32,579 nt of DNA, taken from assembly GCA_030647435.1 (NCBI GenBank), contig JAUSJX010000119.1:1-32579 (forward strand). Reading direction: 5' to 3'. Position numbers and translations under genes: made by a program. Positions 153 to 32,579 of this stretch are shown here, in pieces. Position 1 is the stretch's first letter. Every line of letters starts with the position of its first letter. A model generated the notes under the pieces. That model saw nothing but the letters and a program-made list of their open reading frames with translations. It was not told the DNA's origin and did no database searches. Source of the DNA: Candidatus Rokuibacteriota bacterium (lineage in GTDB: Bacteria > Methylomirabilota > Methylomirabilia > Rokubacteriales > CSP1-6).

Positions 153-212
153 GACGCGTAGGCAACATAAAGCCTGTTCTCCGACACGGCGGCCCTGGGG
201 GCCGTCTCACAG
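153..212 (+). repeat. Dispersed repeat copy 1 (family 1, diverged)
   Basis: The head GCGTAGGCAACATAAAGCC (from 156) matches the heads at 16811, 18984, 21533 and 32230. The body is shortened and carries its own hairpin, GGCCC-TGG-GGGCC at 191-203. It ends in CTCACAG, like the other family-1 ends in TCACAG. To the left, GCATTGATC at 139-147 also occurs left of the copy at 16811, so the element may extend about 20 bp upstream of the core. Confidence 0.7.
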
Positions 213-3340: not shown

Positions 3341-3392
3341 ATCAACCGCCGGGGGCGTTTGTGTTTCTCACTTCGCAGCCACGGAGGCGCGT

Positions 3393-3626
3393 ATGCCAAC
3401 CCGAGTGAGAGTCAATCTGGCCAACGCACAAGAGTTGCTGGAGCTTCCCGGAATCACCCCCGCCGAGGTAGAGATCATCGTGAGGTTTCGCGCTGAGCAT
3501 GGCCCCATTGGAGACGCCGATCAGCTGGAGCGCCTTCTGAGCCGTCACCCCATCCCCGACATGCTCAAGGAGCGCGCCGATTTTTCCCCGGCCGACAGCA
3601 CCGCCCCCGAGGCTCCGGGTGCCTAA
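3393..3626 (+). CDS. Helix-hairpin-helix (ComEA-like) small protein
   Basis: This encodes 77 residues from ATG 3393, preceded by GGAGG about 7 bp upstream. Residues about 7-50 match a single helix-hairpin-helix DNA-binding module of the ComEA/T2SK type: VNLANAQELLELPGITPAEV followed by IVRFRAEHGPIGDADQLERL. The glycine of the hairpin (LPGI) and the second helix arginine are present. There is no signal peptide or transmembrane anchor, unlike full ComEA, so it is a free cytosolic module. The C-terminal 20 residues are low complexity. It overlaps only an upstream alternative start of the next gene. A role in DNA binding is inferred from the fold alone. Confidence 0.8.
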   Translation: MPTRVRVNLANAQELLELPGITPAEVEIIVRFRAEHGPIGDADQLERLLSRHPIPDMLKERADFSPADSTAPEAPGA

Positions 3627-3657
3627 CGGCGCGCGAGAGCATGTGTGTGGTGAGACC

Positions 3658-4119: not shown

Positions 4120-4231
4120 CCGGCGACGTGGGCAAGATGGAGTCGTAGGAGGCTATGTCGAGCGCGCCACCTGCTTCTGCGGCGCCGTGTTCGAGCGGTG
4201 AGAGGACGAGCGTGGGGACGGGCTCACGGCC

Positions 4232-5611: not shown

Positions 5612-5686
5612 GGCGATCCCTCCTATTGTGCCCCGTATGTGTTCAAGGCGACACGCTGAGTCTAGCCGACGTCATCAGGAGGTCGT

Positions 5687-5773
5687 CTAGTGGACCTTGG
5701 TCCAATACGGCGGAGGCCCTGTACCGCTTACCTCGTAGTAGCGGGACTCCTCATCCACGGTCACGGTGGGCAT
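5687..5773 (-). pseudogene. N-terminal stub of an alpha/beta hydrolase
   Basis: ATG 5773 to TAG 5687 encodes 28 residues, MPTVTVDEESRYYEVSGTGP followed by PPYWTKVH. The first 21 residues look like the standard start of alpha/beta hydrolases (MPTVTVDGxRLYYEVxGxGPP followed by LVLIHG). The HG oxyanion segment and everything beyond is missing. It lies between two intact genes and is probably a deletion remnant. Confidence 0.5.
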
Positions 5774-5886
5774 GACAGCCTGAGAATACTGCGCGATCGC
5801 CGCGGATCACACGAGCGAAGGCGTTCCTTGATCGGTTGAAGGCCATGGTACACTTTTGCTCAAGCGGCCGAGACCGGCCATCCCGC

Positions 5887-7479: not shown

Positions 7480-9734
7480 TGTTCGCCGCTTGGGGCCGCT
7501 TCGTCCACCGACACCGATGGCCCGTCCTTGCGCTCTCCGTGCTGTCGCTGGCCCCCTCCGTCTGGCAGATCGTCCGGGGCGCGACGTTCGACAACAACCC
7601 GCTGTCGAGGTTCACGGAGTCGGGACGCGCCATCGCCCTCATCGAGCGGGAGCTGCCGAAGAAGCCCCCGTCGTTCGGGCTCATCCTCGGCAGCGCGTCC
7701 CTTCGCGCCAAGGACCCCGCCTTCCGCGACGCCGTCGCGCGGGCCCTCGCGCCCCTCCGCAACGATGCGCGAGTCGCCCGCGTGGTGACGCCGTTCGACG
7801 GCGCGGGGCCGGACCCCCAGCACGTCTCCCGCGACGGCCGCCGCATCCTGGCGACGGTGGAGCTCACGAGCGGGCCGTCGGAGTTCGCCGCCCTCAATCT
7901 CGGCCAGGGCGAGAGCGGCGCCTACGCGGAGCTGCGCGCCCTGGTGCGCTCCGACGCGCTCGAGGTGGTGCCGGTGGGAACCATGGCCCTCAACCACGAC
8001 TTCACGGAGACGGCCACTCGAGCCATCGCGCGCGCCGAGCGGGTGCTCTGGCCCGTGGTGCCGCTGCTGCTCGTTCTCGTCTTCGGCTCCGTGATCGCGG
8101 CCGCGCTCCCGCTCGGCGTCGGCGTGCTCAGCGTGGCGGCGGGGATGGCAGCGACGCTCGCGCTGTCGCGGGTCGCGCCCGTCTCCGTCTACGCCGTCAA
8201 CGTGGTCTCGATGGTCGGCTTCAGCGTAGCGGTGGACTACTCGCTGTTCGTCGTCAGCCGCTTCCGCGACGAGCTGCGCGGGCGGCCGGGCGCCGAGGCG
8301 CTCGCGCGCACGATGGAGACCGCGGGCCGGGCTGTCCTCTTCTCCGGTCTCACCGTGGCCATCGGGCTCCTCGGCATGCTCTGCCTCCGCCTCCGAAGCC
8401 TGGCCTCGATGGGACTGGCGGGCACGGCCGTCGTCCTGCTCGCCGTCGTCTTCGCCCTGACCTTCCTCCCCGCGCTCCTCGCCATCCTCGGACCGCGCGT
8501 CGACGCGCTCCGGCTGCCGTTTCTCAACCCGGAGCAGTCGGAGCGGAGCCGGCGCGCCTGGCGGCGGCTCGCCGCCGCGGTAATGGCGCACCCCTGGCGC
8601 GTGCTCCTCCCCGTCGTGGCGGGGCTGCTCCTCGTCGGCTCACCCTTCCTGCGGCTCCGGCTCGGGGGCAGCGACGCGAGCGTGCTGCCGGCCTCGGCGG
8701 AATCGCGCCGCGGCGAAGAGCTGCGGCGTGGCGAGTTCGTCGCGGGCGAGGCCAACCACCTCGTGGTGGCGCTCCATGATTCCCGGGGCCGGACCCGCTC
8801 GGCCGAGTCGGTGGGCCGGGCCCATGACTTCTCCCGGTGGCTCGCCGCGCTCCCGAACGTGAGCCGCGTGGACGGGCCTGTGTCCATCGATCCCCGCATC
8901 ACCCGCGATCAATACCAGAAGATCTTCGCGACGCCGCGCGAGCTGCTGCCGCCATCGCTCCGCGAGGCCCTCGCGCAGACCGCGAGCGACCGCCTCATGC
9001 TCCTCGTCGTCTCGACCCCGCTGCGGGCGGGCGCCCAGGAGGCGCACGACCTCGTGCGGACGATCCGCGCGGCGCACCCGCCGGTGGACGGCGAGGTCCT
9101 CGTCACCGGCCAGACCGCTCTCGATCTCGATTTCGCCGACGCCATCGCCCGCAACGCCCCGGTCGCCGTCGCCGTCATCCTGGTCGCGACCTACGTGGTG
9201 CTTTTCATGCTCCTCGGCTCCCTGCTCCTGCCGCTCAAGGCGGTCGTCATGAACGTGCTGTCCATCAGCGCCTCCTACGGCGCGCTGGTGTGGATCTTCC
9301 AGGACGGCCATCTCGGCGGCTGGCTCGGTTTCACGCCGGGGCCCATCGAGACCTCGACGCCGATCATCATGTTCTGTGTGATGTTCGGTCTCTCGATGGA
9401 CTACGAGGTCCTGCTGCTCAGCCGGGTCCGCGAAGAGTACGATCGCACCGGTGACAACACGCAAGCGGTCGCGTTCGCGCTGGAGCGTACGGGCCGGCTC
9501 ATCACGGGGGCGGCGGCCATCATGGCCGCGGTATTCTTCGCCTTCGGGACGGCCGACATGGTCCCCATCCAGGCAATCGGAATCGGGATGGGCATCGCGG
9601 TGGTGGTGGACGCGACCGTGGTCCGCGCCCTCCTCGTACCCGCGACCATGCGGCTGATGGGCGAGTGGAACTGGTGGGCGCCCGCGCCCCTCGCCCGGCT
9701 GCACCGCCGGCTGAAGCTGGGCGACACCCACTAA
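7479..9734 (+). CDS. MMPL/RND family transporter (HpnN-like lipid exporter candidate)
   Basis: This encodes 751 residues from GTG 7479, whose G is the last base of the upstream TAG. A longer open frame reaching back to 7101 is only overlap with the radical SAM gene. The architecture is the doubled RND form: an N-terminal helix (residues 10-30), a periplasmic loop, then a helix cluster at about 185-335 containing SMVGFSVAVDYSLFVVSRFR, a further helix near 375, a second periplasmic domain, and a second cluster at about 560-725 with VMFGLSMDYEVLLLSRVREE. The charged D-Y-x-L/V-x-x-x-S-R motif of MMPL proteins is present in both halves. It probably moves the lipid modified by the preceding enzyme to the outer membrane (inference from coupling). 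It converges with livF, 25 bp apart. Confidence 0.9.
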   Translation: MFAAWGRFVHRHRWPVLALSVLSLAPSVWQIVRGATFDNNPLSRFTESGRAIALIERELPKKPPSFGLILGSASLRAKDPAFRDAVARALAPLRNDARVARVVTPFDGAGPDPQHVSRDGRRILATVELTSGPSEFAALNLGQGESGAYAELRALVRSDALEVVPVGTMALNHDFTETATRAIARAERVLWPVVPLLLVLVFGSVIAAALPLGVGVLSVAAGMAATLALSRVAPVSVYAVNVVSMVGFSVAVDYSLFVVSRFRDELRGRPGAEALARTMETAGRAVLFSGLTVAIGLLGMLCLRLRSLASMGLAGTAVVLLAVVFALTFLPALLAILGPRVDALRLPFLNPEQSERSRRAWRRLAAAVMAHPWRVLLPVVAGLLLVGSPFLRLRLGGSDASVLPASAESRRGEELRRGEFVAGEANHLVVALHDSRGRTRSAESVGRAHDFSRWLAALPNVSRVDGPVSIDPRITRDQYQKIFATPRELLPPSLREALAQTASDRLMLLVVSTPLRAGAQEAHDLVRTIRAAHPPVDGEVLVTGQTALDLDFADAIARNAPVAVAVILVATYVVLFMLLGSLLLPLKAVVMNVLSISASYGALVWIFQDGHLGGWLGFTPGPIETSTPIIMFCVMFGLSMDYEVLLLSRVREEYDRTGDNTQAVAFALERTGRLITGAAAIMAAVFFAFGTADMVPIQAIGIGMGIAVVVDATVVRALLVPATMRLMGEWNWWAPAPLARLHRRLKLGDTH

Positions 9735-16610: not shown

Positions 16611-17015
16611 TCAACGGTTTAGGCTTGTCTCTGATGTCTTCGCCCCATGGGAAGCGGTAACGCCCCTCCCCGAGATCAAAACTACCCGTTCGCTATAATC
16701 CGCGTTCACCATAAAGACCTCTGAGGCCCAAAGATCGTGCTCGTCGCCTTGGCCACGATAAGGCGCGCGATTCAAGAGACGCCCTCCCGCATTGATCAGT
16801 TCTGCCCTTAGAGCGTAGATAACATAAAACCCGCTCTCAGTCATGGCCCGTCTCCCCCGAGGGTCCTCCCTCGGGACCTGCCTGGTCACAGCCATCATTA
16901 CATCGATGGCGACCCAGAAGCCGGTCGCCCTCGATAGATGAAAGTTCGAACACTCTTCAAACGCACCAGCGCTCCTTCCAGCAGACACCGCGCTGGGTAT
17001 CCGTCCTCCAACCAT
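16611..17015 (-). CDS. Doubtful ORF spanning a repeat copy
   Basis: This encodes 134 residues with no recognisable domain. The central part, VTRQVPREDPRGRRAMTESG followed by FYVIYALRA, is the minus-strand translation of the dispersed repeat at 16811-16891 and reappears at the end of the ORF at 21522. The C-terminal 60 residues (INAGGRLLNRAPYRGQGDEH and onward) are not low complexity and could be a relic of a real gene. There is no strong ribosome site. It is reported because the repeat is in frame here; it may not be expressed. Confidence 0.25.
   Translation of the reverse strand: MVGGRIPSAVSAGRSAGAFEECSNFHLSRATGFWVAIDVMMAVTRQVPREDPRGRRAMTESGFYVIYALRAELINAGGRLLNRAPYRGQGDEHDLWASEVFMVNADYSERVVLISGRGVTASHGAKTSETSLNR
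16811..16891 (+). repeat. Dispersed repeat copy 2 (family 1)
   Basis: The head GAGCGTAGATAACATAAAA is followed by CTCAGTCATGGCCCG and a perfect 8-bp hairpin, CCCGAGGG-TCCT-CCCTCGGG, at 16856-16875, ending GGTCACAG. It lies downstream of pckG (minus strand) and before the small ORFs to its left. GCATTGATC at 16789-16797 also occurs left of copy 1. Confidence 0.85.
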
Positions 17016-17032
17016 TTACAGAGCAGGTTACA

Positions 17033-17059
17033 AATCGTCGCGCATTCGGGTTGACGATT
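17033..17059 (-). terminator. Inverted repeat downstream of pckG
   Basis: AATCGTC at 17033-17039 and GACGATT at 17053-17059 form a 7-bp stem with a 13-base loop just past the pckG stop. On the minus strand it ends GACGATTTGTAAC, with only a short T-rich tail. It is a weak terminator candidate. Confidence 0.35.
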
Positions 17060-17074
17060 GGAATGCGGCCTGGG

Positions 17075-18913
17075 CTACAGGGCGCGTTCCAGGGCGTCCC
17101 GCTGCGCGTAAAGCTCCTGCGGCATACGTGCCTTGAGCTTCTCGAACAGCTCCGCGTGGTCCTGCACTTCCTTGCGCCAGATCGCGGGGTCGATCTTCGT
17201 CAATTCCTCGAAGCGCTCGCGCGTGAAGCCTTCGAGTCCGCCCCATTCGAGGTCCTCGTAGCGCGGTTGCAGCCCTAGCGGGGTCCTTACGGCGTCCACT
17301 TTGCCCTCGATGCGGTCGATGATCCATTTCAGCACGCGCATGTTATCGCCGAAGCCGGGCCAGATAAACTCGCCCTTCCCGTCCTGCCGGAACCAGTTCA
17401 CGCCGAAGATGCGCGGCGGTTGCTTGAGGCCCTTGCCGATCTTGAGCCAGTGCTTGAAGTAATCTCCGTAGTGGTAACCGCAGAAGGGCAGCATCGCGAA
17501 CGGATCGCGCCGCACCACGCCCACCTGGCCCACGATCGCGGCGGTCGTTTCCGACGCCATCGTCGAGGCCAGGTACACTCCGTGCGTCCAATCGAACGAC
17601 TCCGTCACCAGCGGCACGGCGGTCGCGCGCCGCCCGCCGAACAGGAACACGCTGATTGGCACCCCGTCCGGGTTTTCCCAATCCGGATCCACGGACGGGA
17701 TTTGGCTGCAGCTCATGGTGAAGCGCGCGTTGGGATGAGCCGCCTTGCGCCCGCATGCCGGTGTCCAGGCATTGCCCTGCCAGTCCGTGAGCTCTTTCGG
17801 GGGTTCTTTCGTCAGGCCTTCCCACCACACATCGCCGTCCGGCAGCAGCGCAACGTTGGTGAATATCGTGTCGTGCTTGACCGCTTCCAGGCAGTTGGGA
17901 TTGGTAAACTGCGAGGTTCCAGGCGCGACGCCGAACGCGCCGGCCTCGGGGTTGATCGCGTAGAGCCGGCCGTCCTTGCCGGGCTTGATCCAGGCGATAT
18001 CCTCGCCGATGGTCGTGACCTTCCAGCCTCTATCCTTGAATATCTTGGGCGGCACCAGCATCGCGAGATTGGTCTTGCCGCATGCGCTCGGGAACGCCGC
18101 CGCCACGTAGTACTTCTTCTTCTCGGGCGTCTCGAGGCCGAGGATCAGCATATGCTCGGCGAGCCAGCCCTGCTCCTTCGCCATGATGGAGGCGATCCGC
18201 AGCGCCAGACACTTCTTGCCGAGCAGTGCGTTGCCGCCGTACCCGCTGCCGAAGGACCAGATTTCCTTGGTCTCCGGGTAATGCACGATGTACTTGTGCT
18301 CCTTGTTGCTCGGCCACGAGATGTCCTTCTGCCCCTGCGCGAGCGGCATGCCGACCGAATGCACGCAGGGCACGAAGGCACCGTCGGCGCCCAGCACGTC
18401 GAGCACCTTGCGGCCGATGCGCGTCATGAGCTTCATGTTGACGACGACGTACGGCGAGTCGGTAAGCTCCACCCCGATGTGGGCGATGTGCGAACCGAGC
18501 GGTCCCATGCTGTACGGGATCACGTACATGGTCCGTCCGCGCATGCAACCGTCGAAGAACGTGTTGAGGGTGGCCCGCATCTCGTCCGGGGCCACCCAGT
18601 TATTGTTGGGGCCGGCGTCTTCCCGGTTGCGGCTGCAGACAAAGGTCCGCTCCTCCATGCGCGCGACATCGTCGGGATCGGAGCGGGCGAGGAAGCAGCC
18701 CGGGCGCTTCTGCTCGTTCAACTTGGTCAGGGTGCCGGAGGCAATCATCTCGCTGCACAACCGGTCGTACTCTGCTTGCGACCCGTCGCACCAATGGATG
18801 CGGTCGGGCTTGGTCAGGCTCGCGATTTCCGCCACCCAGGCCTTGAGCTTGGCGTGGCTCACCGGGTAGTCATTGGACTGCACGAGATGCGCGGCCGTAG
18901 CGGGACGATTCAT
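17075..18913 (-). CDS. pckG: Phosphoenolpyruvate carboxykinase (GTP)
   Basis: This encodes 612 residues, full length for the GTP-dependent class. The ribosome site is AAGGAG before ATG 18913. The enzyme decarboxylates and phosphorylates oxaloacetate to PEP in gluconeogenesis. The family signature FPSACGKTN lies at residues 274-282 (P-loop with the reactive cysteine). The substrate-binding region has [20 protein letters not shown], and the mobile-loop and metal region has [20 protein letters not shown] followed by [12 protein letters not shown]. The nucleotide site has [20 protein letters not shown]. No catalytic residue appears lost. It stands alone, bounded by repeats at 16811 and 18984, and its GC is lower than the liv region. 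Confidence 0.97.
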
Positions 18914-18983
18914 AAGGCTCCTTCTCCGATACGTTCTTCTAAAAACAAAGGCACAGCCGCAATATTATCGCCGCTTTGCCGTT

Positions 18984-19062
18984 GAGCGTAGATAACATAA
19001 CCCCCGTTCTCAGTCATGTGGACTTGCCCGAGTGTCTTCCCCCCGGATCTGCCTTGTCACAG
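18984..19062 (+). repeat. Dispersed repeat copy 3 (family 1, hairpin eroded)
   Basis: The head GAGCGTAGATAACATAA continues CCCCCGTTCTCAGTCATG. The central stem is damaged (CCCGAGTG-TCTT-CCCCCCGG) and a small deletion precedes it. The end is TTGTCACAG. It separates pckG from the TPR-methyltransferase gene; both are minus-strand genes. Confidence 0.8.
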
Positions 19063-19095
19063 CGATATGCATGACGAACGAGCGCAACGCCTCGG

Positions 19096-20445
19096 TCAGC
19101 ATGTGCATCCGTTGGGAGTCGCGGGTTTTGTTGCCGTCACCACCAGACCCGCGACAGGGGCGCCGGATTCCATGCGCAACTCTGCGCGCGCGATGTCCGC
19201 CTTCAGACCCGCTTCGACGAGCACGCACTCGACGTACTGGGCCCGGTGGTTGAAACGGCCGTGGGGCTTGATGCAATACGTCGATAAGGCGTCGTCCTCG
19301 GTCGCTTCCTCGACGGTGAAGATGAGCCGTCCGCCGGATCGCAAAGCTCCGGCCGCAGCGGCGGCGACATCCTTGAGCGCCCCGAAATAGACGAGCGTGT
19401 CCGCCGTCACGATCAGATCGAACGCGTCGTAGTGATCCTGAAGGTATGCAATCAATTCGCCTCTGACGAGCTCATCATAGACGTTCTTCTCCCGCGCGTG
19501 TTCCAGCATACCTTCCGACAGATCCACTCCGACCAGCCAGCGGGCATAGGGCGCCACGAGGGGACCACAGAGCCCGGTTCCGCACCCGGCATCCAGGACA
19601 TCGAGGGTTCGTGCCGCGGGGAGACCGGCATCAGCCAGCGCCGCAGCCACGAGCGCCGGCGCCTGATAGTCGAGCTTCGCGAGCTTGGCTTCGAAGCTCG
19701 CCGCAAAGCTGTCGAACGTCTTCTGCACGTACGCGTCGGATGCGCGTGTCGGAACGTCGCGGCCCGACACCGCCGCCAGTGTGTGCCGCGCCACCGGATC
19801 GTCCGGCTCCGACTTCAGCCACTCCTCGCACACGATGACGGCCTTGTCGGGTTGGCCGATGACGCAATACGCCAGCGCCAGCAGGCGACGCGCTTCCGGA
19901 TACTGCGGCTTCAGCGTGAGAGCCTTGCAATAGCACGTCACCGCCTCCTGGGTGCGATGGGTCGCGCTCAACAGAATGGCCAGATTGTGGTACGCGTCAG
20001 GCTGGTCGGGGTTCAGGCGGATCGCCGTGCGATAGGCCTCTTCGGCCTCCGCGGTCATACCTTGCGCCCTCAGCAGGACGCCAATGTTGTTGTGCGCATT
20101 GGCGTGCGTGGGTTGTAGCACCAGCGCCCGCCGGTAGGCGACAACGGCCTCCTGCAGTTTCCCCTTGTCCTGGAAGATGATGCCAAGATTGCTGTGCCAG
20201 TCAGGCTGATCGGGTGCGAGGTCGAGACTCCTGGTAATCAACGCGATCGCTTCCTCGCTGCGACCTTGCTGGTGTGCCAGCACGCCTGAATAGTGCAGCG
20301 CGTCGGGCTGATCGGGCTTCAGTTCCAGCACCTTTCGATACAGTGCCTCCGCCTCGGCCAGCTGGCCGTTCTTCTGGCACCGAATGGCGATCGCCATCGC
20401 CTCGTCGACGGTGACTTCACGCGGCGCGGTGGGCGATTGTTCCAT
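19096..20445 (-). CDS. TPR-repeat protein with C-terminal SAM-dependent methyltransferase domain
   Basis: This encodes 449 residues. Residues about 14-215 are six tetratricopeptide units, visible from the repeating pattern G-x-x-x-E-A-x-x-x-Y-R-x-A/V-L-x-L-x-P-x-x-P-x-A/D, for example LYRKVLELKPDQPDALHYSG and AYRRALVLQPTHANAHNNIG. Residues about 240-440 form a class I methyltransferase with motif I VLDAGCGTGLCGP (283-295), acidic motif II VGVDLS, and motif IV DLIVTADTLVYFG. This TPR-plus-methyltransferase layout is known in proteobacteria, with undefined substrates. It lies directly downstream of hcp on the same strand and may share a transcript. Confidence 0.88.
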   Translation of the reverse strand: MEQSPTAPREVTVDEAMAIAIRCQKNGQLAEAEALYRKVLELKPDQPDALHYSGVLAHQQGRSEEAIALITRSLDLAPDQPDWHSNLGIIFQDKGKLQEAVVAYRRALVLQPTHANAHNNIGVLLRAQGMTAEAEEAYRTAIRLNPDQPDAYHNLAILLSATHRTQEAVTCYCKALTLKPQYPEARRLLALAYCVIGQPDKAVIVCEEWLKSEPDDPVARHTLAAVSGRDVPTRASDAYVQKTFDSFAASFEAKLAKLDYQAPALVAAALADAGLPAARTLDVLDAGCGTGLCGPLVAPYARWLVGVDLSEGMLEHAREKNVYDELVRGELIAYLQDHYDAFDLIVTADTLVYFGALKDVAAAAAGALRSGGRLIFTVEEATEDDALSTYCIKPHGRFNHRAQYVECVLVEAGLKADIARAELRMESGAPVAGLVVTATKPATPNGCTC

Positions 20446-20454
20446 GACGGGTCT

Positions 20455-20634
20455 CTATTCGAAGCCTGGTCGCACGTCTACTCCAACCGATAGTCGAAAT
20501 CGCCGTCGGCCACGGCGAGGCGCACGTCGTCCAACGCCGAACCGATCATCGTCCAGCGTCTCCCCTTTGATCACGCCACCCTTGGCGCCTCTGACCATCA
20601 GGAACATGTCGCCGGGAGAGTGCGCGTCGCTCAA
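20455..20634 (-). pseudogene. N-terminal Hcp-like fragment
   Basis: A frame opening at TTG 20634, one base after the hcp stop, reads SDAHSPGDMFLMVRGAKGGV followed by IKGETLDD. This matches the start of Hcp proteins (MFLKVxGxKGxIKGESxDD). It then runs into arginine-rich nonsense and stops at 20455. The conserved Hcp beta-barrel is absent. The fragment is a truncated second hcp in the same transcription unit, left between hcp and the TPR-methyltransferase gene. Confidence 0.5.
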
Positions 20635-20635
20635 C

Positions 20636-21115
20636 CTAGCCTTCCTTGTTCAGCTTTATGTCGTACTTGAAGTGCACGCCTGCGTCGAGCGATCCATCCG
20701 GCTTCTGCGGCCTGTATTCCAAGTCGACTTTCGCCGGCTTCAGGGTCACGCCTTCGACACCGACCTCTCCGTCGCTGAGCGAAGGTTGAACGCTCGTGAT
20801 GAGGATGTCGTTCATCTTGATGATCAGAAACTCCTGCTGCCCCTTGCCCGCCTTTCGGGCGGTAATCGTGGCGTCCTTGATGTGCTTGCCCGTGGCGCAG
20901 GCTGCCATCAGAAGAGGCGATGCCTTGTCGATGTGGTGAGCAAGATGGAAATCCGAAAAGCTCGCTTTGCCGGATCCTCCTCCACCCCCCTGCCCCGTGC
21001 CCCCGGTTTGCGACACGCCCCATGACCATGAGAGCACCTCGACCTCGTCCTTGTGCTTGGCGTCGAGCGATTCGCCCTTGATAGTTCCGATCTTCGCGAA
21101 GATGTCTGGCGCCAT
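20636..21115 (-). CDS. hcp: Hcp-family type VI secretion tube/effector protein
   Basis: This encodes 159 residues from ATG 21115, with GAGGAG 7 bp upstream. The protein begins APDIFAKIGTIKGESLDAKH, continues DEVEVLSWSWGVSQTG and ends with VHFKYDIKLNKEG, the recognisable Hcp1 (PF05638) pattern. Hcp hexamers form the inner tube of type VI secretion systems and chaperone small effectors. A Gly-rich loop (GGTGQGGGGGSGK) is longer than usual. No tss structural genes are in the window, so this is an orphan Hcp here. An AT-rich segment upstream may be its promoter. Confidence 0.9.
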   Translation of the reverse strand: MAPDIFAKIGTIKGESLDAKHKDEVEVLSWSWGVSQTGGTGQGGGGGSGKASFSDFHLAHHIDKASPLLMAACATGKHIKDATITARKAGKGQQEFLIIKMNDILITSVQPSLSDGEVGVEGVTLKPAKVDLEYRPQKPDGSLDAGVHFKYDIKLNKEG

Positions 21116-21143
21116 TACTACGCTCCTCTTCCCACCCGGTTGG

Positions 21144-21180
21144 TGAAATAAATAAAATATAATAAAATATTCAATATGCC
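21144..21180 (-). promoter_or_regulatory. AT-rich promoter-like segment upstream of hcp
   Basis: About 35 bp of nearly pure A+T stands out from the GC-rich surroundings. On the minus strand TTGAAT is followed after 17 bp by TTATTT, with several TATATT/TATTTT alternatives. It begins about 30 bp upstream of the hcp start. AT-rich tracts like this also attract H-NS-type silencers. Confidence 0.4.
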
Positions 21181-21521
21181 CGTCGTCGGCGTTCTGTGCC
21201 GATGCAACGCTGCAGTGATGCAGTATCGGTGCTACGTTCGCTCGGTTGTGCTCGATTCGGGTTACCGGCGCGCGTTCGGCAGCCGGATCGGCGCTTCCCA
21301 AGCGCTCCGCAACGGGCGTTGCGGCAAATCATGCAGTCGCCGGGCGCAGCAAGTCAAGCGCGGAGCGCGCTCGCCCCTGAGCGCGGCTTTGCTTGCCTGA
21401 ACGCGACAAACTCGGGCAGCATTGGTCATAACGCCGCTTGCGCACGCCCACGACCCCCCAACAGGAAGCCAGATCGCTCGCCAACCGACCCAGCGCATGC
21501 TCGATTCGCGCCCCAGGACCA
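21181..21521. other. Non-coding stretch between hcp promoter region and a small membrane gene
   Basis: No credible gene is seen on either strand; the short ORFs here lack ribosome sites and domain-like sequence. The stretch contains a GC-rich imperfect dyad around 21305-21325 (CGCAACGGGCGTTGCGG). Nothing else is recognised. Confidence 0.4.
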
Positions 21522-21824
21522 TCAAGCGCGTGGAGCGTAGATAACATAAAGCCCGTTCTCAGTCATGGCCCGTCTTGCCCGAGGGTCTTCCCTCGGAACC
21601 CGCCGTGTCACAGGAGGGCTCTTCGCGATCTGCTTGTCGATCCGCTGAACGGCCTCGACGAGCTCGAGCGTGGCCCCGCCGACATTGACTTTGCTGACCC
21701 GTGGGGGGAGGGAGATGATGTCGGTGCGGAGAGCGAACACCAGGAGGATCATGGTGCAGGGCCAAATGAGGCCTTTGGCCAGACCGATGAATATGCCAAG
21801 ACGGTCATTCGCTCCATCAGCCAT
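21522..21824 (-). CDS. Small single-helix membrane protein whose C-terminus is encoded by a repeat
   Basis: This encodes 100 residues from ATG 21824. One transmembrane helix (GIFIGLAKGLIWPCTMILLV) is followed by a short soluble part, VNVGGATLELVEAVQRIDKQ. From VTRRVPREDPRARRAMTENG to the stop the protein is the minus-strand translation of the repeat at 21533-21613. The native C-terminus was therefore probably replaced when the repeat arrived, or the repeat provides the stop. It lies between the lipase-like gene and hcp on the same strand. Function is unknown. Confidence 0.5.
   Translation of the reverse strand: MADGANDRLGIFIGLAKGLIWPCTMILLVFALRTDIISLPPRVSKVNVGGATLELVEAVQRIDKQIAKSPPVTRRVPREDPRARRAMTENGLYVIYAPRA
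21533..21613 (+). repeat. Dispersed repeat copy 4 (family 1, best preserved)
   Basis: The head GAGCGTAGATAACATAAAG is followed by CCCGTTCTCAGTCATGGCCCG and a perfect hairpin CCGAGGG-TCTT-CCCTCGG at 21579-21596, ending GTGTCACAG. It overlaps the 3' end of the small membrane gene. Confidence 0.85.
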
Positions 21825-22069
21825 AACGTGTCCCTCTTCTTCCTACTTCCACGCGATCGCCTCCCAGGGGCTCCGCCAGCCGCACCTCCGTCTAGCGGGC
21901 TGCTCTCGGACTGCGTTGACCATTCCGCGTATCAGCGGGTGTCGTTGGAGAGGCGGGCATGGGGCCGCAGACGATCGACGTGGGCGCCTTTGAGTTTCGT
22001 CCATCTCCCGCTGCTGCGAAGGACGAGTAGTCGTCGTCGGGAGTGGCGATGCGCGATGGCCCCAGAAAG

Positions 22070-23626
22070 TCATCCTGCGCGGGTTGATGTCTCAACTCCG
22101 TCATGTGTCAGGTCGGTGTCGGGCCATAGACCGGGCTTGATCGAGAGCACACCAGTCACCGCGCCTCCCGCCCTGAGCCCGACCCTGAATACGCCATTGG
22201 CGTCCCGCGTCATCGGCGCCCAGTTATCGCCCTCCGAAAGCCATCGGTACGAGACCTCTTCATCACCCAGACGGACTTCCACGCTCTCGTTGTAGATCGG
22301 CCTCTCCGGATACTCGTGGTCCCAAAGGAATCCGTCTCGGACTCTATGCTCGACGATACGAATCTTCGCGCCGAAATGTGAGAATTTGTCTCCCTCGTCT
22401 CTCAACCGAGAGTTGACGAACGCGGTGTGCAGCAGCAGTCGCGGCGGTACCTGCGCACGCTCGAGCCGGATCGCGTTCTCGCATGGATCCTGCTGCCTCC
22501 GATGGAGGTACGTACCACTCCTCCGGATCGAGAAGAGAAACTCGAAGTCGTAGAAGTAGTGATCGTTCCCGGTGGGCGCCGTGGTCCCGAACTTGATGTC
22601 GTCGAGTGAAATCTCGGCCCTGGTATCACCGAACAGGAATCGCTGGATGTTTTCATAGCTTTCGTAGCTGTTGACAATCCCGCGGGTCCCGGAGTGTGCA
22701 CGATGGACATTCGCCCAGAACGACCTCCGCTCGTCTGGGTAGCCGACCTCTTCCGGAGGCTTCGGACCGGCGACCACGTAGGCGTAGTCCTGCTTGACGA
22801 GTCCATCGCTGAAACTTCCCGTTAGCTCCCTTGTCACTCCATACGAGCGGTAGTCGCTACCGATGATGCAGAGGCAGCGCTTGACCGGAAATGCATGCTT
22901 TGCGCTTGGGTCACCGAGGCTGTGGAGGTCCTCGGTCGGGTCGAGCTTCAGATACTCACGCATTCGCTCTTCCTTGAAGATGTTGGCGTCGAACGGATTG
23001 AGCTTCGACGTGAGGAGGTTCTCGATCACGTCGGGAATCCGGCCCAGATTGATGCCGCGGTGCGGAGTGCCCATCGTGACGAACCGGTAGATCCAGTCCT
23101 TCGGGTCCTTGTTGTGCACATGTGGTATTAGATTTTGGATCAGTGTCCGGCAGACGAGTCCGCCCATCGAGTGAGCGATCAAGATGACTCGATAATCCCG
23201 GTCGTTCTCTCCGAGGTCGACGCCTGCCTTTCGCAGCCGCTCGGGGATCGTTTGACAGACGAGTGTGTATAGATCCTCGGCGTGCTCCTCGATCCTGCGG
23301 ACCGTGTCACGGAACACGTCCTGATCGTAGAACCTTGATACCCAGACGCTCCTGGACGGGTTGGAATGGAAGATCTCGATGCCACGGTTGACCGAGTCGG
23401 CATACCCGTAGTCCCTGATCTTCATGAGTCGGATGAGCTGGCCCTCGAAGACGTCGGCCTCGAAATACTGTGGGGCCGGGGCTTGACGCTTCTCGACGGA
23501 TGTGGCCGAAAAACCGTAGTACGTATCGTTGAATGTCTCCTCACGCTCGGCGGCTCGCATCGCGTAGCCGCGGACATACACGATGGGATAGTAGGGCGCC
23601 TCGATCTTGAACCGATAAGTGTTCAT
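22070..23626 (-). CDS. Lipase-like alpha/beta hydrolase (PGAP1/lipase type)
   Basis: This encodes 518 residues from ATG 23626, with GAGGAG 8 bp upstream; a longer in-frame extension to 23857 lacks this and is GC-rich filler. The nucleophile elbow is VILIAHSMGGLVCR, with catalytic Ser 153 in AHSMGG, and the following VTMGTPHRGINLG is typical of lipase and PGAP1-like proteins. An oxyanion-side N-terminal YYPIVYVRGYA fits the HG/RG strand. The C-terminal 200 residues (from about FLFGDTRAEISLDD) appear to be a separate beta-rich domain of unknown type. There is no signal peptide. Its location beside hcp raises the possibility of a type VI lipase effector (inference only). Confidence 0.8.
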   Translation of the reverse strand: MNTYRFKIEAPYYPIVYVRGYAMRAAEREETFNDTYYGFSATSVEKRQAPAPQYFEADVFEGQLIRLMKIRDYGYADSVNRGIEIFHSNPSRSVWVSRFYDQDVFRDTVRRIEEHAEDLYTLVCQTIPERLRKAGVDLGENDRDYRVILIAHSMGGLVCRTLIQNLIPHVHNKDPKDWIYRFVTMGTPHRGINLGRIPDVIENLLTSKLNPFDANIFKEERMREYLKLDPTEDLHSLGDPSAKHAFPVKRCLCIIGSDYRSYGVTRELTGSFSDGLVKQDYAYVVAGPKPPEEVGYPDERRSFWANVHRAHSGTRGIVNSYESYENIQRFLFGDTRAEISLDDIKFGTTAPTGNDHYFYDFEFLFSIRRSGTYLHRRQQDPCENAIRLERAQVPPRLLLHTAFVNSRLRDEGDKFSHFGAKIRIVEHRVRDGFLWDHEYPERPIYNESVEVRLGDEEVSYRWLSEGDNWAPMTRDANGVFRVGLRAGGAVTGVLSIKPGLWPDTDLTHDGVETSTRAG

Positions 23627-23699
23627 GAGATATCTCCTCAGCGAGAGCCTCGAGCAACGAGAGCCACAGACGAGCCTGACGTGACACGACGGTGGCCCA

Positions 23700-23735
23700 T
23701 AGGCAACATTAACGCCAGTTCGCATCACGCGGCCC
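23700..23735 (+). repeat. Dispersed repeat copy 5 (partial, hybrid of both families)
   Basis: TAGGCAACATTAACGCC matches the family-2 head (TAAGCAACATGAACGCC) with two changes, while the next bases AGTTCGCATCA resemble family 1 (CGTTCTCAGTCA). It therefore links the two families. It sits about 75 bp upstream of the lipase-like gene. Confidence 0.55.
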
Positions 23736-23739
23736 CATA

Positions 23740-24175
23740 CAGCGGGCATCCAGGACCCCCTGAAAGACCCCAGCGTCGTCGAGCCGCCGGCCCCGGAGCC
23801 CTCCCTGGAGCCGAGCCCGCCCGGCTCTGATCCGGCTCCTGCGGCGAGCCTGCACATGGGACAGAGGCGTCGTCAAGGGCCGCCTGAGCGGCGCAGACGG
23901 CTGCCCTGGCGGCAGTTCGCCGTCGATCTCGAGGAGAACGCTGAGCGGCCCGTGAGAGGCCGGCCTGGCTCCCGGGCGGGGGTTACCCGGTGGCCGCGGC
24001 GTGGTCGGGCTGGGGCGAGGCCGGTCCAGGAGGGGTCTGGGGCCGGCGCCAGCCCAAGGTGGGCGAGGATCGCGCGCAGGAACACCGGGGTCTTGCGCGG
24101 CAGTGTGAGGGCGACGCCCGACGCGTCCCTGAACGGCCCCCGCATCATCGAGACTCCATCACGAGCGGGGCGGCG
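23740..24175. other. GC-rich stretch without a confident gene
   Basis: The only notable frame is on the minus strand at 23873-24148. It starts MMRGPFRDASGVALTLPRKT and contains LRAILAHLGLAPAPDP, faintly like the extreme C-terminus of IS91-type transposases. No catalytic part and no inverted repeats are seen. It is regarded as a remnant or as non-coding. Confidence 0.3.
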
Positions 24176-24358
24176 CTAGAGCTTCGCCGCCCGCTCGGAC
24201 AGCCGCTCGACGAGCGCGATCACTTCTTTCATCCGCTCTCTCAACTCCGCCTCGGCCTTCTTCGCGCCCTCGGCGAGGGCGGCCTCGAGCGCGTCCTCCA
24301 GGTTCGTGACGGCGATCCCGAACACCTTGAGCAAACGGCGCGTGCTGTCCTGAGCCAT
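24176..24358 (-). CDS. Small helical protein of unknown function
   Basis: This encodes 60 residues from ATG 24358, preceded by GGAGTGA. The sequence MAQDSTRRLLKVFGIAVTNL leads into a long charged amphipathic helix rich in Ala, Glu and Lys (EAALAEGAKKAEAELRERMK), likely a coiled coil. It follows the ACT-domain gene on the same strand after 24 bp and is probably co-transcribed with it. I recognise no family. Confidence 0.65.
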   Translation of the reverse strand: MAQDSTRRLLKVFGIAVTNLEDALEAALAEGAKKAEAELRERMKEVIALVERLSERAAKL

Positions 24359-24382
24359 GGTTCACTCCGTCGCCCATCAGCT

Positions 24383-24796
24383 CTACGCGGAGCCGAGGAG
24401 CTTGGCGGCCTTGCTCACGTCGCGCGGGGCCACCCACAGGATGGCCCCGTAGCGGCCGGCGCCCGCGCAGACGGCGTCGATGGCCGTCACGTTGATCTTC
24501 GCCTCGGCGAGCTTCCTGTGCAGCTCGGCCACCGCACCCACGCGCTCCTCGCCACTCACCAGGATGGCGCGCTTGGGGCCCGTGAGCTTCCACTTCGCCG
24601 TCCGCGCGAACTGCTTGAACGCGGCCGGATCGGCGGGAACGAAGTCGAGCTGGGAGCCGCGCCCTTCGGGGAAGCCAGAGAACGCGAGAAGATTGATGCC
24701 GGCCTCGTGGAGCGCCGTCAGAAAGCGGGCGCCCTCGCCCGCCTTGTTGGGCACCTGCGCGTAGAAGTACTCGACGCGTTGAATCGTGTCGGCCAT
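24383..24796 (-). CDS. Tandem ACT-domain protein
   Basis: This encodes 137 residues from ATG 24796, with AAGGAGA 7 bp upstream. Two ACT-like units are seen. The first (residues 6-65) is VEYFYAQVPNKAGEGARFLT followed by ALHEAGINLLAFSGFPEG. The second (75-133) is AILVSGEERVGAVAELHRKL followed by AEAKINVTAIDAVCAGAGRY. Each has the beta-alpha-beta-beta-alpha-beta rhythm with Gly before the helix. Free-standing ACT proteins usually bind amino acids or regulate enzymes in trans. The partner is unknown; a carboxymuconolactone decarboxylase fragment lies just upstream. Confidence 0.8.
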   Translation of the reverse strand: MADTIQRVEYFYAQVPNKAGEGARFLTALHEAGINLLAFSGFPEGRGSQLDFVPADPAAFKQFARTAKWKLTGPKRAILVSGEERVGAVAELHRKLAEAKINVTAIDAVCAGAGRYGAILWVAPRDVSKAAKLLGSA

Positions 24797-24808
24797 GGTC
24801 GGTCTCCT

Positions 24809-24916
24809 TCAGGCCTCGAGCTCGGTGCCGAGCGCCTCGTTGAATCGGTCGGTGAAGTTGGCCGCGGCGATGCTCAGCGTGAGCTGGGTAAGCGCCTCGG
24901 CGGAGAGTGTCCGTCG
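24809..24916 (-). pseudogene. C-terminal fragment of a carboxymuconolactone decarboxylase/AhpD-like protein
   Basis: Between an in-frame TGA at 24917-24919 and the stop at 24809 the frame reads LSAEALTQLTLSIAAANFTD then RFNEALGTELEA. This resembles the C-terminal helix of CMD/AhpD-type proteins (LTLxIAxANFxNRFNxALGT). The active-site CxxC half is missing. It ends 12 bp before the ACT gene start, so the original operon order was probably CMD protein, ACT protein, helical protein. Confidence 0.5.
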
Positions 24917-28960: not shown

Positions 28961-29143
28961 ATGGTCGAGGCCTCAGCTCAGCCGATGGCACAGCAGCGCA
29001 TCCGGGAGCGCGCAGGAGCGAAGGACGTTCGCCTCCATGACCTGCGCCGAGCCCTCGCCAACTCGCTGGCCGCGAGCGGTTACGGGTTGCCGATGATCGG
29101 GCGGGTGCTCAACATTCCCAACCGTACGCGCGGCTCGACCTGA
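28961..29143 (+). pseudogene. C-terminal remnant of a tyrosine recombinase/phage integrase
   Basis: The frame contains QQRIRERAGAKDVRLHDLRR followed by ALANSLAASGYGLPMIGRVL. HDLRR is the HxxR catalytic box, and the following segment matches the integrase helix (FAxxLxxxGxxLxxIxxxLGH). The LGH box is altered to LNI and the catalytic Tyr is missing, so the protein is inactive. N-terminal domains are absent. It lies about 410 bp from the tRNA-fMet fragment, supporting a decayed integrated element. Confidence 0.7.
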
Positions 29144-29200: not shown

Positions 29201-30145
29201 TCAGAAGACGATCACCAGCCGCCCTCGGATCCCGCCCGCGTCCAGCTTGCGCTGCGCGTCCGCCGCCCGCTCGGGCGGAAAGGTCTCCGCCACCCGCAGG
29301 GTGAGCTTGCCTTCGGCGACCAGATGACCCAGCCGATCGAGCGCTTCATGGTTGTGCAGGTACGAGGTCACCCGCACCGGCTCGATCGTGATGCCTCGTT
29401 CAGAGGGGCCGGCGAAGCCGCGCACCGTGGCCAGCTTGCCGCCATCCCGGATGGCGGGCAGGACCGCCGCGTCGAGCACGGCCGCGTCGATCAGCCCATC
29501 AACGCCCCCGGGAGCCGCGTCGTGGAGGCCGCGGACCGCCGCCTCGCCGCGGGGCACCAGCGTCTCCGCGCCGAATCGCCTCACCAGCGCTTCGTCCTGC
29601 GGCCCCGCCACGGCGATCACGCGCAGCCCGTCGCTGACGCCGAGCTCAACCGCATAACCACCGACCGCGCCAGCCGCGCCGGTGACGCCCAGGGTCTGCC
29701 CCGGCTGGAGCGCGAGCCGGTCCAGCGCGAGGCGCACCGTCAGCCCGTTCATCGGCAGGGTGGCGGCGGCCTCCAGGCTGGCTCCCTCGGGCACGCGGGC
29801 GACAGACGCGACCGGAACGACCACCAACTCCGCCTGGGCGCCGCCGCCCGGACGGCGCGGATTGACGATCGCCATCACGCGGTCACCGGTGTGCCAGTCC
29901 GCGCCCTCGCCGACGGCGTCCACCACCCCGGCCAGCTCCATGCCGGGGATGTAGGGCGGCCGCACACCCATCGCTGTCAGTTGGGCGGTTGTCTGCCGTC
30001 CGGCACGGAAACCGATGTCGGTCGGGTTGACCGTCGCCGCCGCCACGCGAATGCGCACCTCGCCGGGGCCGGGCTGCGGCTCAGGCAATTCCGCCACTTC
30101 CAGCACCTCGGGTCCACCGAATCGGGAAAAGGTCACCGCTCGCAT
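29201..30145 (-). CDS. Zinc-independent MDR oxidoreductase (quinone oxidoreductase-like)
   Basis: This encodes 314 residues from ATG 30145, with GAGAGG 6 bp upstream. It is a medium-chain dehydrogenase/reductase: RAVTFSRFGGPEVLEVAELP and PGPGEVRIRVAAATVNPTDI at the N-terminus, PPYIPGMELAGVVDAVGEGA, and the NADP-binding LGVTGAAGAVGGYAVEL. Structural and catalytic zinc cysteines are absent, as in quinone oxidoreductase (Qor) proteins. The C-terminus LDAGGIRGRLVIVF is typical. It probably reduces an enone or quinone with NADPH, substrate unknown. The 3' end is about 60 bp from the integrase remnant. Confidence 0.9.
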   Translation of the reverse strand: MRAVTFSRFGGPEVLEVAELPEPQPGPGEVRIRVAAATVNPTDIGFRAGRQTTAQLTAMGVRPPYIPGMELAGVVDAVGEGADWHTGDRVMAIVNPRRPGGGAQAELVVVPVASVARVPEGASLEAAATLPMNGLTVRLALDRLALQPGQTLGVTGAAGAVGGYAVELGVSDGLRVIAVAGPQDEALVRRFGAETLVPRGEAAVRGLHDAAPGGVDGLIDAAVLDAAVLPAIRDGGKLATVRGFAGPSERGITIEPVRVTSYLHNHEALDRLGHLVAEGKLTLRVAETFPPERAADAQRKLDAGGIRGRLVIVF

Positions 30146-30263
30146 GTTTGCCTCTCTTTGGCAGCCGCCGTGGGGCGGGTGCGTGTGCGTTCGCACTGCT
30201 GACCGGGCTCATGGACTCAGAGGCTGTGAATGAATCGGCGCATCGCGCGGCGCGAGGGGATTG

Positions 30264-30365
30264 TCAACATGAACGCCCTCCAGCGGGGGTCGGTGCGTCC
30301 GTGGCCCCCGTCACCGTGCCCTAACCTCCCAGACTTAGCCGCCGCCCGCCCCAGGAGCCGTAGGC
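30264..30365 (+). repeat. Dispersed repeat copy 6 (family 2)
   Basis: CAACATGAACGCCCTCCAGC begins about 100 bp that are nearly identical to the copy at 30900-31011. For about the first 80 bases no difference is seen. The body contains CGGGGG...CCCCCG, an inverted pair. It lies just downstream of the NIPSNAP gene on the minus strand. Confidence 0.9.
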
Positions 30366-30375
30366 ACGGCGTCCT

Positions 30376-30399
30376 CGATCTATTCTCCGATCTATTCTC
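30376..30399 (+). repeat. Tandem duplication of a 12-mer at the NIPSNAP stop codon
   Basis: CGATCTATTCTC occurs twice in succession (30376-30387 and 30388-30399). The second copy overlaps the stop codon of the NIPSNAP gene (30398-30400). Confidence 0.7.
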
Positions 30400-30724
30400 A
30401 GGGATGCGGTCCCCACGGGGCCGCGGTCAGCAGCTTGACCTCCTGGGAAACGAGCAACGGACGGAATTTTGCGGCGAAGCCTTCAATAAAATCCTTGTTG
30501 GAATATACCGCAGCCCAGTGCGCGCGACGGTCGGCATCGTCGTCGAACTTCCAGAGATGGATGAGTTGATTGATCATGCCCGTGTCGGCTTGGAAGTAGC
30601 CGATCAACTTCTTGTCTTGGCCGCCTTTCTGGAGCGCCGGATAGCCAAGCTCGGTATACAGCTTGACCGCCTCGGCCATCTTGCCGACCTGAAGCGTGTA
30701 GGTCCGCATTTCATAGATCGTCAT
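30398..30724 (-). CDS. NIPSNAP-family protein
   Basis: This encodes 108 residues from ATG 30724, with GGGAGGA 6 bp upstream. IYEMRTYTLQVGKMAEAVKL, then GYFQADTGMINQLIHLWKFD, DDADRRAHWAAVYSNKDF and the last PL-x-x-Q-x-x-x-L-L form the complete NIPSNAP (PF07978) dimeric alpha/beta-barrel fold. Bacterial members are single-domain and their function is mostly unknown. The gene is enclosed by two near-identical direct repeats (30264 and 30900) as a single-gene unit. Confidence 0.92.
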   Translation of the reverse strand: MTIYEMRTYTLQVGKMAEAVKLYTELGYPALQKGGQDKKLIGYFQADTGMINQLIHLWKFDDDADRRAHWAAVYSNKDFIEGFAAKFRPLLVSQEVKLLTAAPWGPHP

Positions 30725-30899
30725 GGTGATCCTCCCGAGCTGTTGATGGTGTTTCGTTCTGCGGCGACTCCGGAGTTGTCAGTCCTGCACCGCGAATTCC
30801 AATATAGCCCGCAGTCCGCTCCCGAGAGTAGGGCCGGGTTGTCCATCGGCGTCTGGCGCCGGCGCATATCGAGCGGCCCGAACGCCCAAGCGCCAGCGT

Positions 30900-31011
30900 G
30901 AGCGTAAGCAACATGAACGCCCTCCAGCGGGGGTCGGTGCGTCCGTGGCCCCCGTCACCGTGCCCTAACCTCCCAGACTTAGCCGCCGGCCGCCCGAGGA
31001 GCCCGATGGCA
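30900..31011 (+). repeat. Dispersed repeat copy 7 (family 2, full head)
   Basis: GAGCGTAAGCAACATGAACG begins with the same GAGCGTA-R-R/Y-AACAT head as family 1 but continues with the family-2 body. It ends GCCCGATGGCA. It separates the dipeptidase gene (to the right) from the NIPSNAP gene (to the left). Confidence 0.9.
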
Positions 31012-31017
31012 CACCTC

Positions 31018-32130
31018 CTACCCGGCGGAGGCGGCGAAGATCCTCAGATAGTTACCGCCGACGACCTTCGCGGTGTCGGCGGGCGTGAAGCCCCCGCGCA
31101 GCATCGCGTCGACGAGCTGCGTGAAGTGGTCGTACTGGGGAAAGAGCCCGGGGCCCGACGACGTGTCGGTGCCGATGCTGACGTGATCGACGCCCACGAC
31201 TTCAGCCATCTCCTTGAGGCCGTCCACATAACGCTCGAGGCTCGGAAAGAAGTGCCAGATGCCGATGGAGCCGCCCGTCTCCGCCAGCGCGCGGGCGTGG
31301 TCCGGCGTGATCTGGCGCTCCGTGAGCGGCGTGGGACCCTGCGCCTTCGAGCCCCGCAGTGCGGTGTGCGAGAGCAGGAGCGGCTTCGTCGATACCTTCA
31401 CGGCCTGCTTCACCGTGTCCGCGGTCGCGTGCGCGACGTCGATCACGACCCCTAGCCGGTGGCACGCGCGGATGACGTCCGCGCCGAACGGCGTCAGCCC
31501 GTTGTGCGTGACGGCGCCAGTCTGGAAGTCGCCGATGTCGTTCGGCGTGTAGTGCACGAGCTGCATCGTGCGCACGCCGCGACGGTACGAGTCTTCCAGA
31601 CGCTCCAGCTTCCACTCGAGGAAATCGAGGCCCTCGATGTCGACGATGATCGCGGGCTGACCCGCCGCGTGCGCCGCTTTCAGATCGGCAAGGGTCAGCG
31701 CCCGGCGGACGCCGTGCTTGGCCACCAGCTCGTCGATCCACGCGAGCCGCTCCAGATGATAGGTGTAAAGGAATCCCGGCTCGGGCGTGCGCTGCGCGAC
31801 CAGCACGTTCTGCGCGTTGCGGCCGAGGATAGGGCCGTCGGGGACGTCGGCGAGGCAGAGAATGGCGATGCGGCCGGCGCGCATGCTGCGCGCGATCTCG
31901 TCGCTGGGTCGCGCAGTGCGGGACGTGACGCCGTTCGGACCCGCGTGAGTGTGGACGTCGATCGAGATGTTGTCGCGGAGCAGGGCGGCGGCGGCGGTGA
32001 GCGGCGCCGCCGACGCCCCCACCGCATCCGCGCGCGTTCCGGCACAGCCAGCGAATACCGCGCCGACCGAGCTCAGCATCGCGCTCCACATCCAGTCGCG
32101 GCGGGTCAGCGCGTGACCGCAGCAATGCAT
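31018..32130 (-). CDS. Renal-dipeptidase-like (M19) metallohydrolase, lipoprotein or Tat-type signal
   Basis: About 370 residues from the second of two adjacent ATGs (32130), 5 bp after GAGGAA. The in-frame extension to 32253 begins inside a repeat and is rejected. The N-terminus has TRRDWMWSAMLSSVGAVFAG then C, combining a twin-arginine and a lipobox-like pattern. M19 metal-site elements are readable: ISIDVHTHAGPNG (HxH in place of the more common HxD), IIVDIEGLDFLE (bridging Glu), VIDVAHATADT, LLLSHTALRG and VSIGTDTSSGPG. The family cleaves dipeptides or acyl-amino acids. The gene overlaps the stop of a truncated upstream gene (ATGA). Confidence 0.88.
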   Translation of the reverse strand: MHCCGHALTRRDWMWSAMLSSVGAVFAGCAGTRADAVGASAAPLTAAAALLRDNISIDVHTHAGPNGVTSRTARPSDEIARSMRAGRIAILCLADVPDGPILGRNAQNVLVAQRTPEPGFLYTYHLERLAWIDELVAKHGVRRALTLADLKAAHAAGQPAIIVDIEGLDFLEWKLERLEDSYRRGVRTMQLVHYTPNDIGDFQTGAVTHNGLTPFGADVIRACHRLGVVIDVAHATADTVKQAVKVSTKPLLLSHTALRGSKAQGPTPLTERQITPDHARALAETGGSIGIWHFFPSLERYVDGLKEMAEVVGVDHVSIGTDTSSGPGLFPQYDHFTQLVDAMLRGGFTPADTAKVVGGNYLRIFAASAG

Positions 32131-32228
32131 CATTTCCTCACCCCCATCCCGCGGAACTTCATGTGCAGCTCGGTCATCGGCGTGAAGCCGACCACGCGCG
32201 CGGTGTGCGCGTAGATCTTCGTCGCCAA
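32130..32228 (-). pseudogene. 3' tail of a gene cut off by a repeat
   Basis: The frame reads KIYAHTARVVGFTPMTELHM then KFRGMGVRK and stops at TGA 32132-32130, overlapping the dipeptidase start (ATGATG/TGA). This coupling shows it was once the preceding gene of an operon. Immediately upstream, at 32230, the dispersed repeat begins and no coding frame continues. The family is not recognised. Confidence 0.55.
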
Positions 32229-32229
32229 C

Positions 32230-32307
32230 GAGCGTAGATAACATAAAACGCATTGTCAGTCATGGCCCGCCGCGCCCGAGGGGCTTCCCTCGGGTCTGCC
32301 GTGGCAG
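32230..32307 (+). repeat. Dispersed repeat copy 8 (family 1)
   Basis: The head GAGCGTAGATAACATAAAAC continues GTCAGTCATGGCCCG and a perfect 8-bp hairpin, CCCGAGGG-GCTT-CCCTCGGG. Its end, GTGGCAG, runs directly into the head of a family-2 copy. Confidence 0.85.
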
Positions 32308-32410
32308 CAACATGAACGCCCTCCGGCGGTGGTCGCCCCGCCCGTGGCCCCCATCACCGTGACCGAGCCTCCCAGACTCAGCCCCCGCCCGCCCCAGGAG
32401 CCCGATGGCA
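32305..32410 (+). repeat. Dispersed repeat copy 9 (family 2), in tandem with copy 8
   Basis: CAGCAACATGAACGCCCTCC starts at the last bases of copy 8. The body differs by scattered substitutions from the copies at 30264 and 30900 but ends with the same GCCCGATGGCA. It stands downstream of the thioesterase gene on the minus strand. Confidence 0.85.
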
Positions 32411-32446
32411 AAGCCCATCGCTCTCCAGCATTCCACTGGCAACCGC

Positions 32447-32579
32447 TCAGCCCAGCGCCCGCTCCTCGTCGACGCACAGCAGCCGCACCCGGCCTTGCGC
32501 GACCAACTGCTCCTTCTCGTCGCGGATCCACGCCTCCCACACCTGGCTCGTGCGACCGCGGGTGACCGGGCGCGCGTTG
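32447..32579 (-). CDS. PaaI/hotdog-fold thioesterase, C-terminal part (cut by window edge)
   Basis: The last 44 residues of a minus-strand gene are present: ARPVTRGRTSQVWEAWIRDE then KEQLVAQGRVRLLCVDEERA. The pattern GRTxxVWExxIRDExxxLVAxGRVxLL is the final pair of strands of PaaI-like hotdog thioesterases, which hydrolyse acyl-CoA thioesters. The catalytic region lies outside the window. Confidence 0.75.
   Translation of the reverse strand, partial: NARPVTRGRTSQVWEAWIRDEKEQLVAQGRVRLLCVDEERALG

Follow-up and report, generated by a model that had tools for sequence, protein, structure and literature searches.

ISCR elements are known chiefly from antibiotic-resistance plasmids. Among comparable systems, Helitrons carry a hairpin near one end and capture neighbouring DNA by read-through, and the target of IS91 is GTTC/CTTG. 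Gene capture between oriIS copies is already known for ISCR elements: with ISCR28 and sul4, a gene has been described as a 'sandwich' between two oriIS copies in succession (PMC12772301). One-ended transposition carrying adjacent DNA is described for IS801 of Pseudomonas syringae (PMC3189936), and ISCR transposition itself is stated never to have been demonstrated experimentally (PMC6218425, PMC13393415). For Rokubacteria or Methylomirabilota, no solo-end arrays or chromosomal rows of IS91/ISCR type were found in the open-access library searched, which is weak evidence of absence.

The window, i.e., the whole stretch of 32,579 nucleotides analysed here, ends with a row of single genes that alternate with short direct repeats. 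The two repeats flanking a NIPSNAP gene in this row are probably solo oriIS-side ends of ISCR-like rolling-circle transposons of the IS91 family, and ISCR-type gene capture would have built the row. These repeats belong to a family of about 107 nt, called B, which is sister to a family of about 80 nt, called A; dozens of copies are present in this Rokubacteria-type genome. The features of the window are the following:

154..212, plus strand: short related end of type C, with a hairpin, then TCACAG
16811..16883, plus strand: A element
18984..19056, plus strand: A element
21533..21606, plus strand: A element
23695..24100, plus strand: related end of type D (CATAGGCAACATTAACGCC), then about 400 bp
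29201..30196, minus strand: zinc-binding alcohol dehydrogenase-like (ADH) gene, left of B copy 1 and of separate provenance
30256..30365, plus strand: B element, copy 1, left end degenerate (GGGGATTGTCAACAT)
30398..30724, minus strand: NIPSNAP gene, 108 aa (Pfam PF07978, E 2.1e-20), 3' end toward copy 1
30900..31011, plus strand: B element, copy 2, left end intact, GAGC followed by GTAAGCAACAT
31018..32022, minus strand: M19 membrane dipeptidase gene (Pfam PF01244)
32230..32303, plus strand: A element, left end intact, GAGCGTAGATAACAT
32308..32402, plus strand: B element, copy 3, immediately behind the A end at 32230..32303

The sequence-only reading had described near-identical direct repeats around one gene, and this description holds: 30265-30359 and 30909-31003 share 93 of 95 bases in direct orientation, the longest exact run is 80 bp (from 30265 and from 30909), and NIPSNAP is the single gene enclosed. 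The unit, given there as 636 bp, measures 644 bp from start to start of the two repeats. A third B copy at 32308-32402 (87% identical) had been overlooked, and with it the M19 dipeptidase gene is bracketed as well. The 14-base core CATGAACGCCCTCC occurs three times against 0.34 expected with up to two mismatches allowed, far above chance. For this to be the most recently formed unit, the sole sign is that copies 1 and 2 are the most similar pair in the window, and gene conversion would give an equal picture. Because of the 80-bp exact identity of these copies, homologous excision of the 644-bp unit is possible; no joined or excised junction was found in the genome's own assembly, where minority forms cannot show. 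IS91-type transposition is described as replicative (PMC3189936), so that copying, not excision, is to be expected from transposition. Within the window, no Rfam match at gathering thresholds and no tRNA were found.

The nine element ends that were recognised in the window are all in one orientation. The roughly 400 bp following the type D end are multi-copy in this and other genera and, judged by eye only, look like a transposase C-terminus. A complete GTP-type PEP carboxykinase gene (17075-18883) lies between two A copies of the array part. Beside the ADH gene, 28961-29143 gives a PF00589 match (E 0.009, below cut-off) and may be what is left of a tyrosine recombinase C-terminus. At the right edge, 32439-32579 is identical to positions 4921-5061 of contig C2 of the same genome (G000), a contig-end overlap of 141 bases; C2, which bears a Y2_Tnp fragment, is probably the rightward continuation of the window.

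Iterated profile searches of 36 stretches of the genome gave 50 A and 23 B matches, counts that are no census as the stretches had been selected for carrying element or integrase matches; 40 of 143 candidates were scored in the first genome search. The contigs are fragmentary, and part of the gene calling was made with a crude codon-usage script. In genome_contigs, an exact A pattern had no match and a B pattern was found in three stretches, all from Candidatus Rokubacteria/Rokuibacteriota. The full B consensus is GAGCGTAGGCAACATTAGC...GATGCCACAG and that of A is GAGCGTAGATAACATAAAACCC...TTGTCACAG, with the hairpin CCCGAGGG/CCCTCGGG; the left end and the CACAG end are common to both, and the middles differ. 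Most copies are solo ends of 75-110 nt without transposase. The tetranucleotide before the left end is GAGC in 33 of 43 A and 11 of 22 B copies (GAGG in five more B), for a background of 0.8%. Neighbours at most 5 kb apart share their orientation in 28 of 38 pairs in the own-genome stretches (P 0.005, for loci chosen for their matches and with pairs on one contig not independent) and in 8 of 10 pairs in relatives. At two places, C22:125018-125350 and C50:899-1222, A copies form facing pairs at a distance of 180-189 bp; a relative of the C22 interval is present in G001, and no A copies were detected near it.

The left flanks of unlinked copies in the genome are unique, and some right flanks share 120-1417 bp from the element onward. 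On its opposite strand, this shared DNA encodes the C-terminus of an IS91/ISCR-like transposase. The longer copies pass directly into such a transposase gene, its 3' end toward the repeat and at a near-fixed distance. Among 13 facing pairs, the transposase match lies 151-175 bp from the element in eight A pairs and 182-230 bp in five B pairs (counting the nearest element only and leaving out L285, which is the same stretch as L278). Besides this genome, G001, G004, and two named Rokubacteria genomes have such pairs; other geometry is found in 5 of the 22 element-transposase neighbours within 600 bp. PF04986 matches adjoin B on C6 and A on C139. The transposase fragment on C6 matches the NCBIfam model ISCR_clade_Ia (NF052416) with an E value of 1.3e-52, below the strict curated cut-off of the model, and ISCR clade Ia is likewise the best NCBIfam model, again below the curated cut-off, for the transposase on C155, where a third end type, E, is found. 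Pfam assigns both to Y2_Tnp. Since the longer copies run into an ISCR-like transposase at a near-fixed distance, A and B are, on sequence comparison, segments from the oriIS-side terminus of ISCR-like rolling-circle elements, and most of them occur as solo mini-copies. No transposase was found beside the NIPSNAP gene or the B copies of the window. On C60 (L166, 2975-5145), an IS91 transposase gene is preceded directly upstream by an overlapping tyrosine recombinase gene.

The resemblance to ISCR elements lies in the relationship of the transposase, in the position of the end about 190-290 bp past the transposase stop, and in the foreign genes adjacent to it. At L035, about 233 bp separate the transposase stop from the A left end beyond it; in a plasmid ISCR relative, the CTTCCTATACCC core ends 256 bp past the stop, and in ISCR1 the transposase gene is followed downstream by an oriIS region of 232 bp (PMC6218425). 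The A and B ends align weakly with the 22-mer of the ISCR1 oriIS (shuffle P 0.03-0.33). Unlike ISCR elements, those described here are mostly solo ends of 75-110 nt; they are numerous, they lie on chromosomal-type contigs, their host lineage is uncultured, and the genes they delimit are metabolic, not resistance genes. The inferred target, GAGC, also differs from the GTTC/CTTG of IS91. With the one-ended products of IS801 they share a constant oriIS-side end, the absence of inverted repeats, the probable acquisition of adjacent DNA, and the existence of short fragments, which in IS801 are able to transpose (PMC3189936). IS801 fragments are described as ending in a target-like tetranucleotide (PMC3189936), whereas no such distal signature was found here in four copies: the distal ends of four truncated transposase-bearing copies, read by eye in the alignment, have no GAGC. 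In four loci whose transposase genes are long, a search for motifs found no terIS or shared far end. As in Helitrons, there is a hairpin near the end and, in the capture proposed below, read-through into neighbouring DNA, but the present elements are bacterial and short, with an ISCR-like transposase.

The genes of the row have separate provenance. NIPSNAP, ADH, and M19 have relatives at 78-91% in other genera, on separate contigs or far apart. Five further members of the family (G006, G011, G016, G020, G030) have NIPSNAP relatives at 83-91%, and among the matches listed for G001-G004, there is no close relative, identities being only about 26-41%. The nucleotide homology of NIPSNAP reaches only a few bases beyond the gene (30396-30736). 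At the five loci of its relatives, no A or B copies were detected. ADH has relatives in G012, G032, and G011, and a 140-bp piece of it in G003; close M19 relatives are found in G022 and G011, the homology to G022 (31017-32220) ending 10 bp before the A end. GC contents are 59% for NIPSNAP, 72% for ADH, and 69% for M19. Elsewhere in the window, 1115-8883 is 91-98% identical to contigs of G001 and G003, and within 16700-24900 the congener matches listed exceed 90% only at 24365-24900 (G004) and in repeat DNA. Both the directional clustering of the ends and the separate provenance of the row genes are established. It is likewise established that the repeats have homology to the termini of elements with an ISCR-like transposase in near-fixed geometry, and that they mark junctions between modules of different origin.

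In the proposed ISCR-type capture, the nick would fall at the left end after a GAGC-like tetranucleotide (in the sense of the transposase, between ...CCTAC and GCTC). Rolling-circle transposition starting from a B end would then overrun the short element in a one-ended manner and take adjacent DNA along. Repeated events in the same orientation, together with homologous exchange between ends, could have yielded the order ADH, B, NIPSNAP, B, M19, A-B, next gene. In this scheme, NIPSNAP with its 644-bp unit would form an ori-delimited module, which a resident transposase could copy in trans and which recombination between the flanking B copies could remove.

Junctions were compared with those of congeners. 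On C106, a left homology of 750-850 bp with G001, G003, and G004 ends at, or at most 10 bp from, the A end; at this site G001 and G003 have GAGC without an element, followed by other DNA. Homology on C106 may resume after 58 bp, over a length too short to claim. In G003 (L258, on C452), the site of this A copy has another kind of end, GAGCGTAGATGACGTAAACGCGC, some 45 bp beyond it, and the C106/L258 site is an insertion hotspot. On C151, a 391-bp continuation common to G001 and G003 (96.7%) does not appear in the 1.75 kb that follow A on the right. GAGC is kept in the empty site at C106, absent at C151, and shifted at C139. Contigs C79 of G000 and C182 of G001 are 96.8% identical over 3182 bp reaching into the same B copy, and right of it they have nothing in common except other B copies. 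There, G001 has a 785-bp single-gene unit of 53% GC and then a second direct B copy, and the G000 DNA is unrelated. This is the NIPSNAP-type layout with presence/absence between close relatives, though with another unit. The word 'cassette' of the sequence-only reading is therefore apt for the module boundaries at the repeats, for the three neighbour genes of separate provenance, and for this comparable unit, missing at the matching site in G000; the repeats themselves, however, are solo ends of ISCR-like transposons and no pair peculiar to NIPSNAP.

It is possible, although unlikely, that recombination between B copies rather than transposition moves the modules, the direct repeats offering homology for deletion, exchange, and local duplication. 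The exact identity of copies 1 and 2 over 80 bp would fit, as would the B copy on C79, which differs at 2 of 94 positions from the second B of G001, whose tail type it has, and at 4 of 94 from the first, as if the intervening unit had been removed by exchange. However, the DNA to the right of the B in G000 differs from that right of the second B in G001, so a simple deletion is insufficient, and the spread of the copies is left unexplained. Such recombination is compatible with ISCR-type capture as its second step.

Less likely still, A and B could be MITE-like miniature rolling-circle elements inserted in intergenic GAGC sites, the genes between them being bystanders that never moved along. 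Solo copies are indeed sharp-ended on both sides, three B copies (C6, C78, C102) look identical across the element with differing flanks, and the right flanks of unlinked copies are unique unless transposase DNA follows. Yet congener homology resumes to the right of the element in none of the 13 copies tested, and it resumes neither within 1.75 kb at C151 nor in C79 versus C182; when the two flanks of each of 13 copies were fused, leaving the element out, and searched in four congeners, none had both flanks at one place. Terminal inverted repeats of DDE-type MITEs are absent, the ends being, by inspection, GAGCGTAG... and ...CACAG. The solo copies end at a fixed CACAG and so may be mini-elements with their own terminator. 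Moreover, among the 108 element copies compared, no unit of element plus non-transposase cargo was found at two places; the lack of duplicated cargo and of a distal GAGC, with the fixed right ends, means that mini-element insertion may account for some copies.

An attC identity of the repeats, with the units as cassettes of the genome's integron, is very improbable: the genome does have an IntI (472 bits, C156), and the repeats do lie just 3' of single genes with conserved ends and variable middles, but the attC-like sites beside this IntI are of different sequence (CTAAC and GCGTT-type ends), which largely refutes an attC identity of A and B, whose consensus on inspection has no paired RYYYAAC/GTTRRRY cores and which are fused to ISCR-like transposases. 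As in integron cassettes, the genes stand singly and have short repeats in direct orientation on their 3' side, but attC features are lacking, no integrase involvement was seen, and the repeats are those of HUH-transposase elements. On C156 (L089, 12544-17515), three attC-like repeats of the classical type, with small cassettes, come after the apparently intact IntI, and further integrase fragments lie on C79, C64, and C134. DNA right of the A copy at C6:46273 (C6:46353-46559) matches locus L262 of G001, which also matches the integron cassette region of C156 (L089:17506-17777), so integron cassette DNA may itself ride at A junctions.

Beyond the ISCR-type capture preferred here, a rolling-circle counterpart of the integron can be imagined, doubtful as it is. 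A gene with a solo oriIS end, bounded at its other side by the GAGC nick site of the next element, would be the cassette, and a resident ISCR-like transposase would nick two successive origins, copy the cassette as single-stranded DNA, and insert it at GAGC, so that rows of one orientation would arise on Rokubacteria chromosomes. The genome, in which solo ends number in the dozens, related end types are several, and junctions can be resolved in congeners, offers a natural record of ISCR activity without drug selection and makes the two-origin 'sandwich' model testable.
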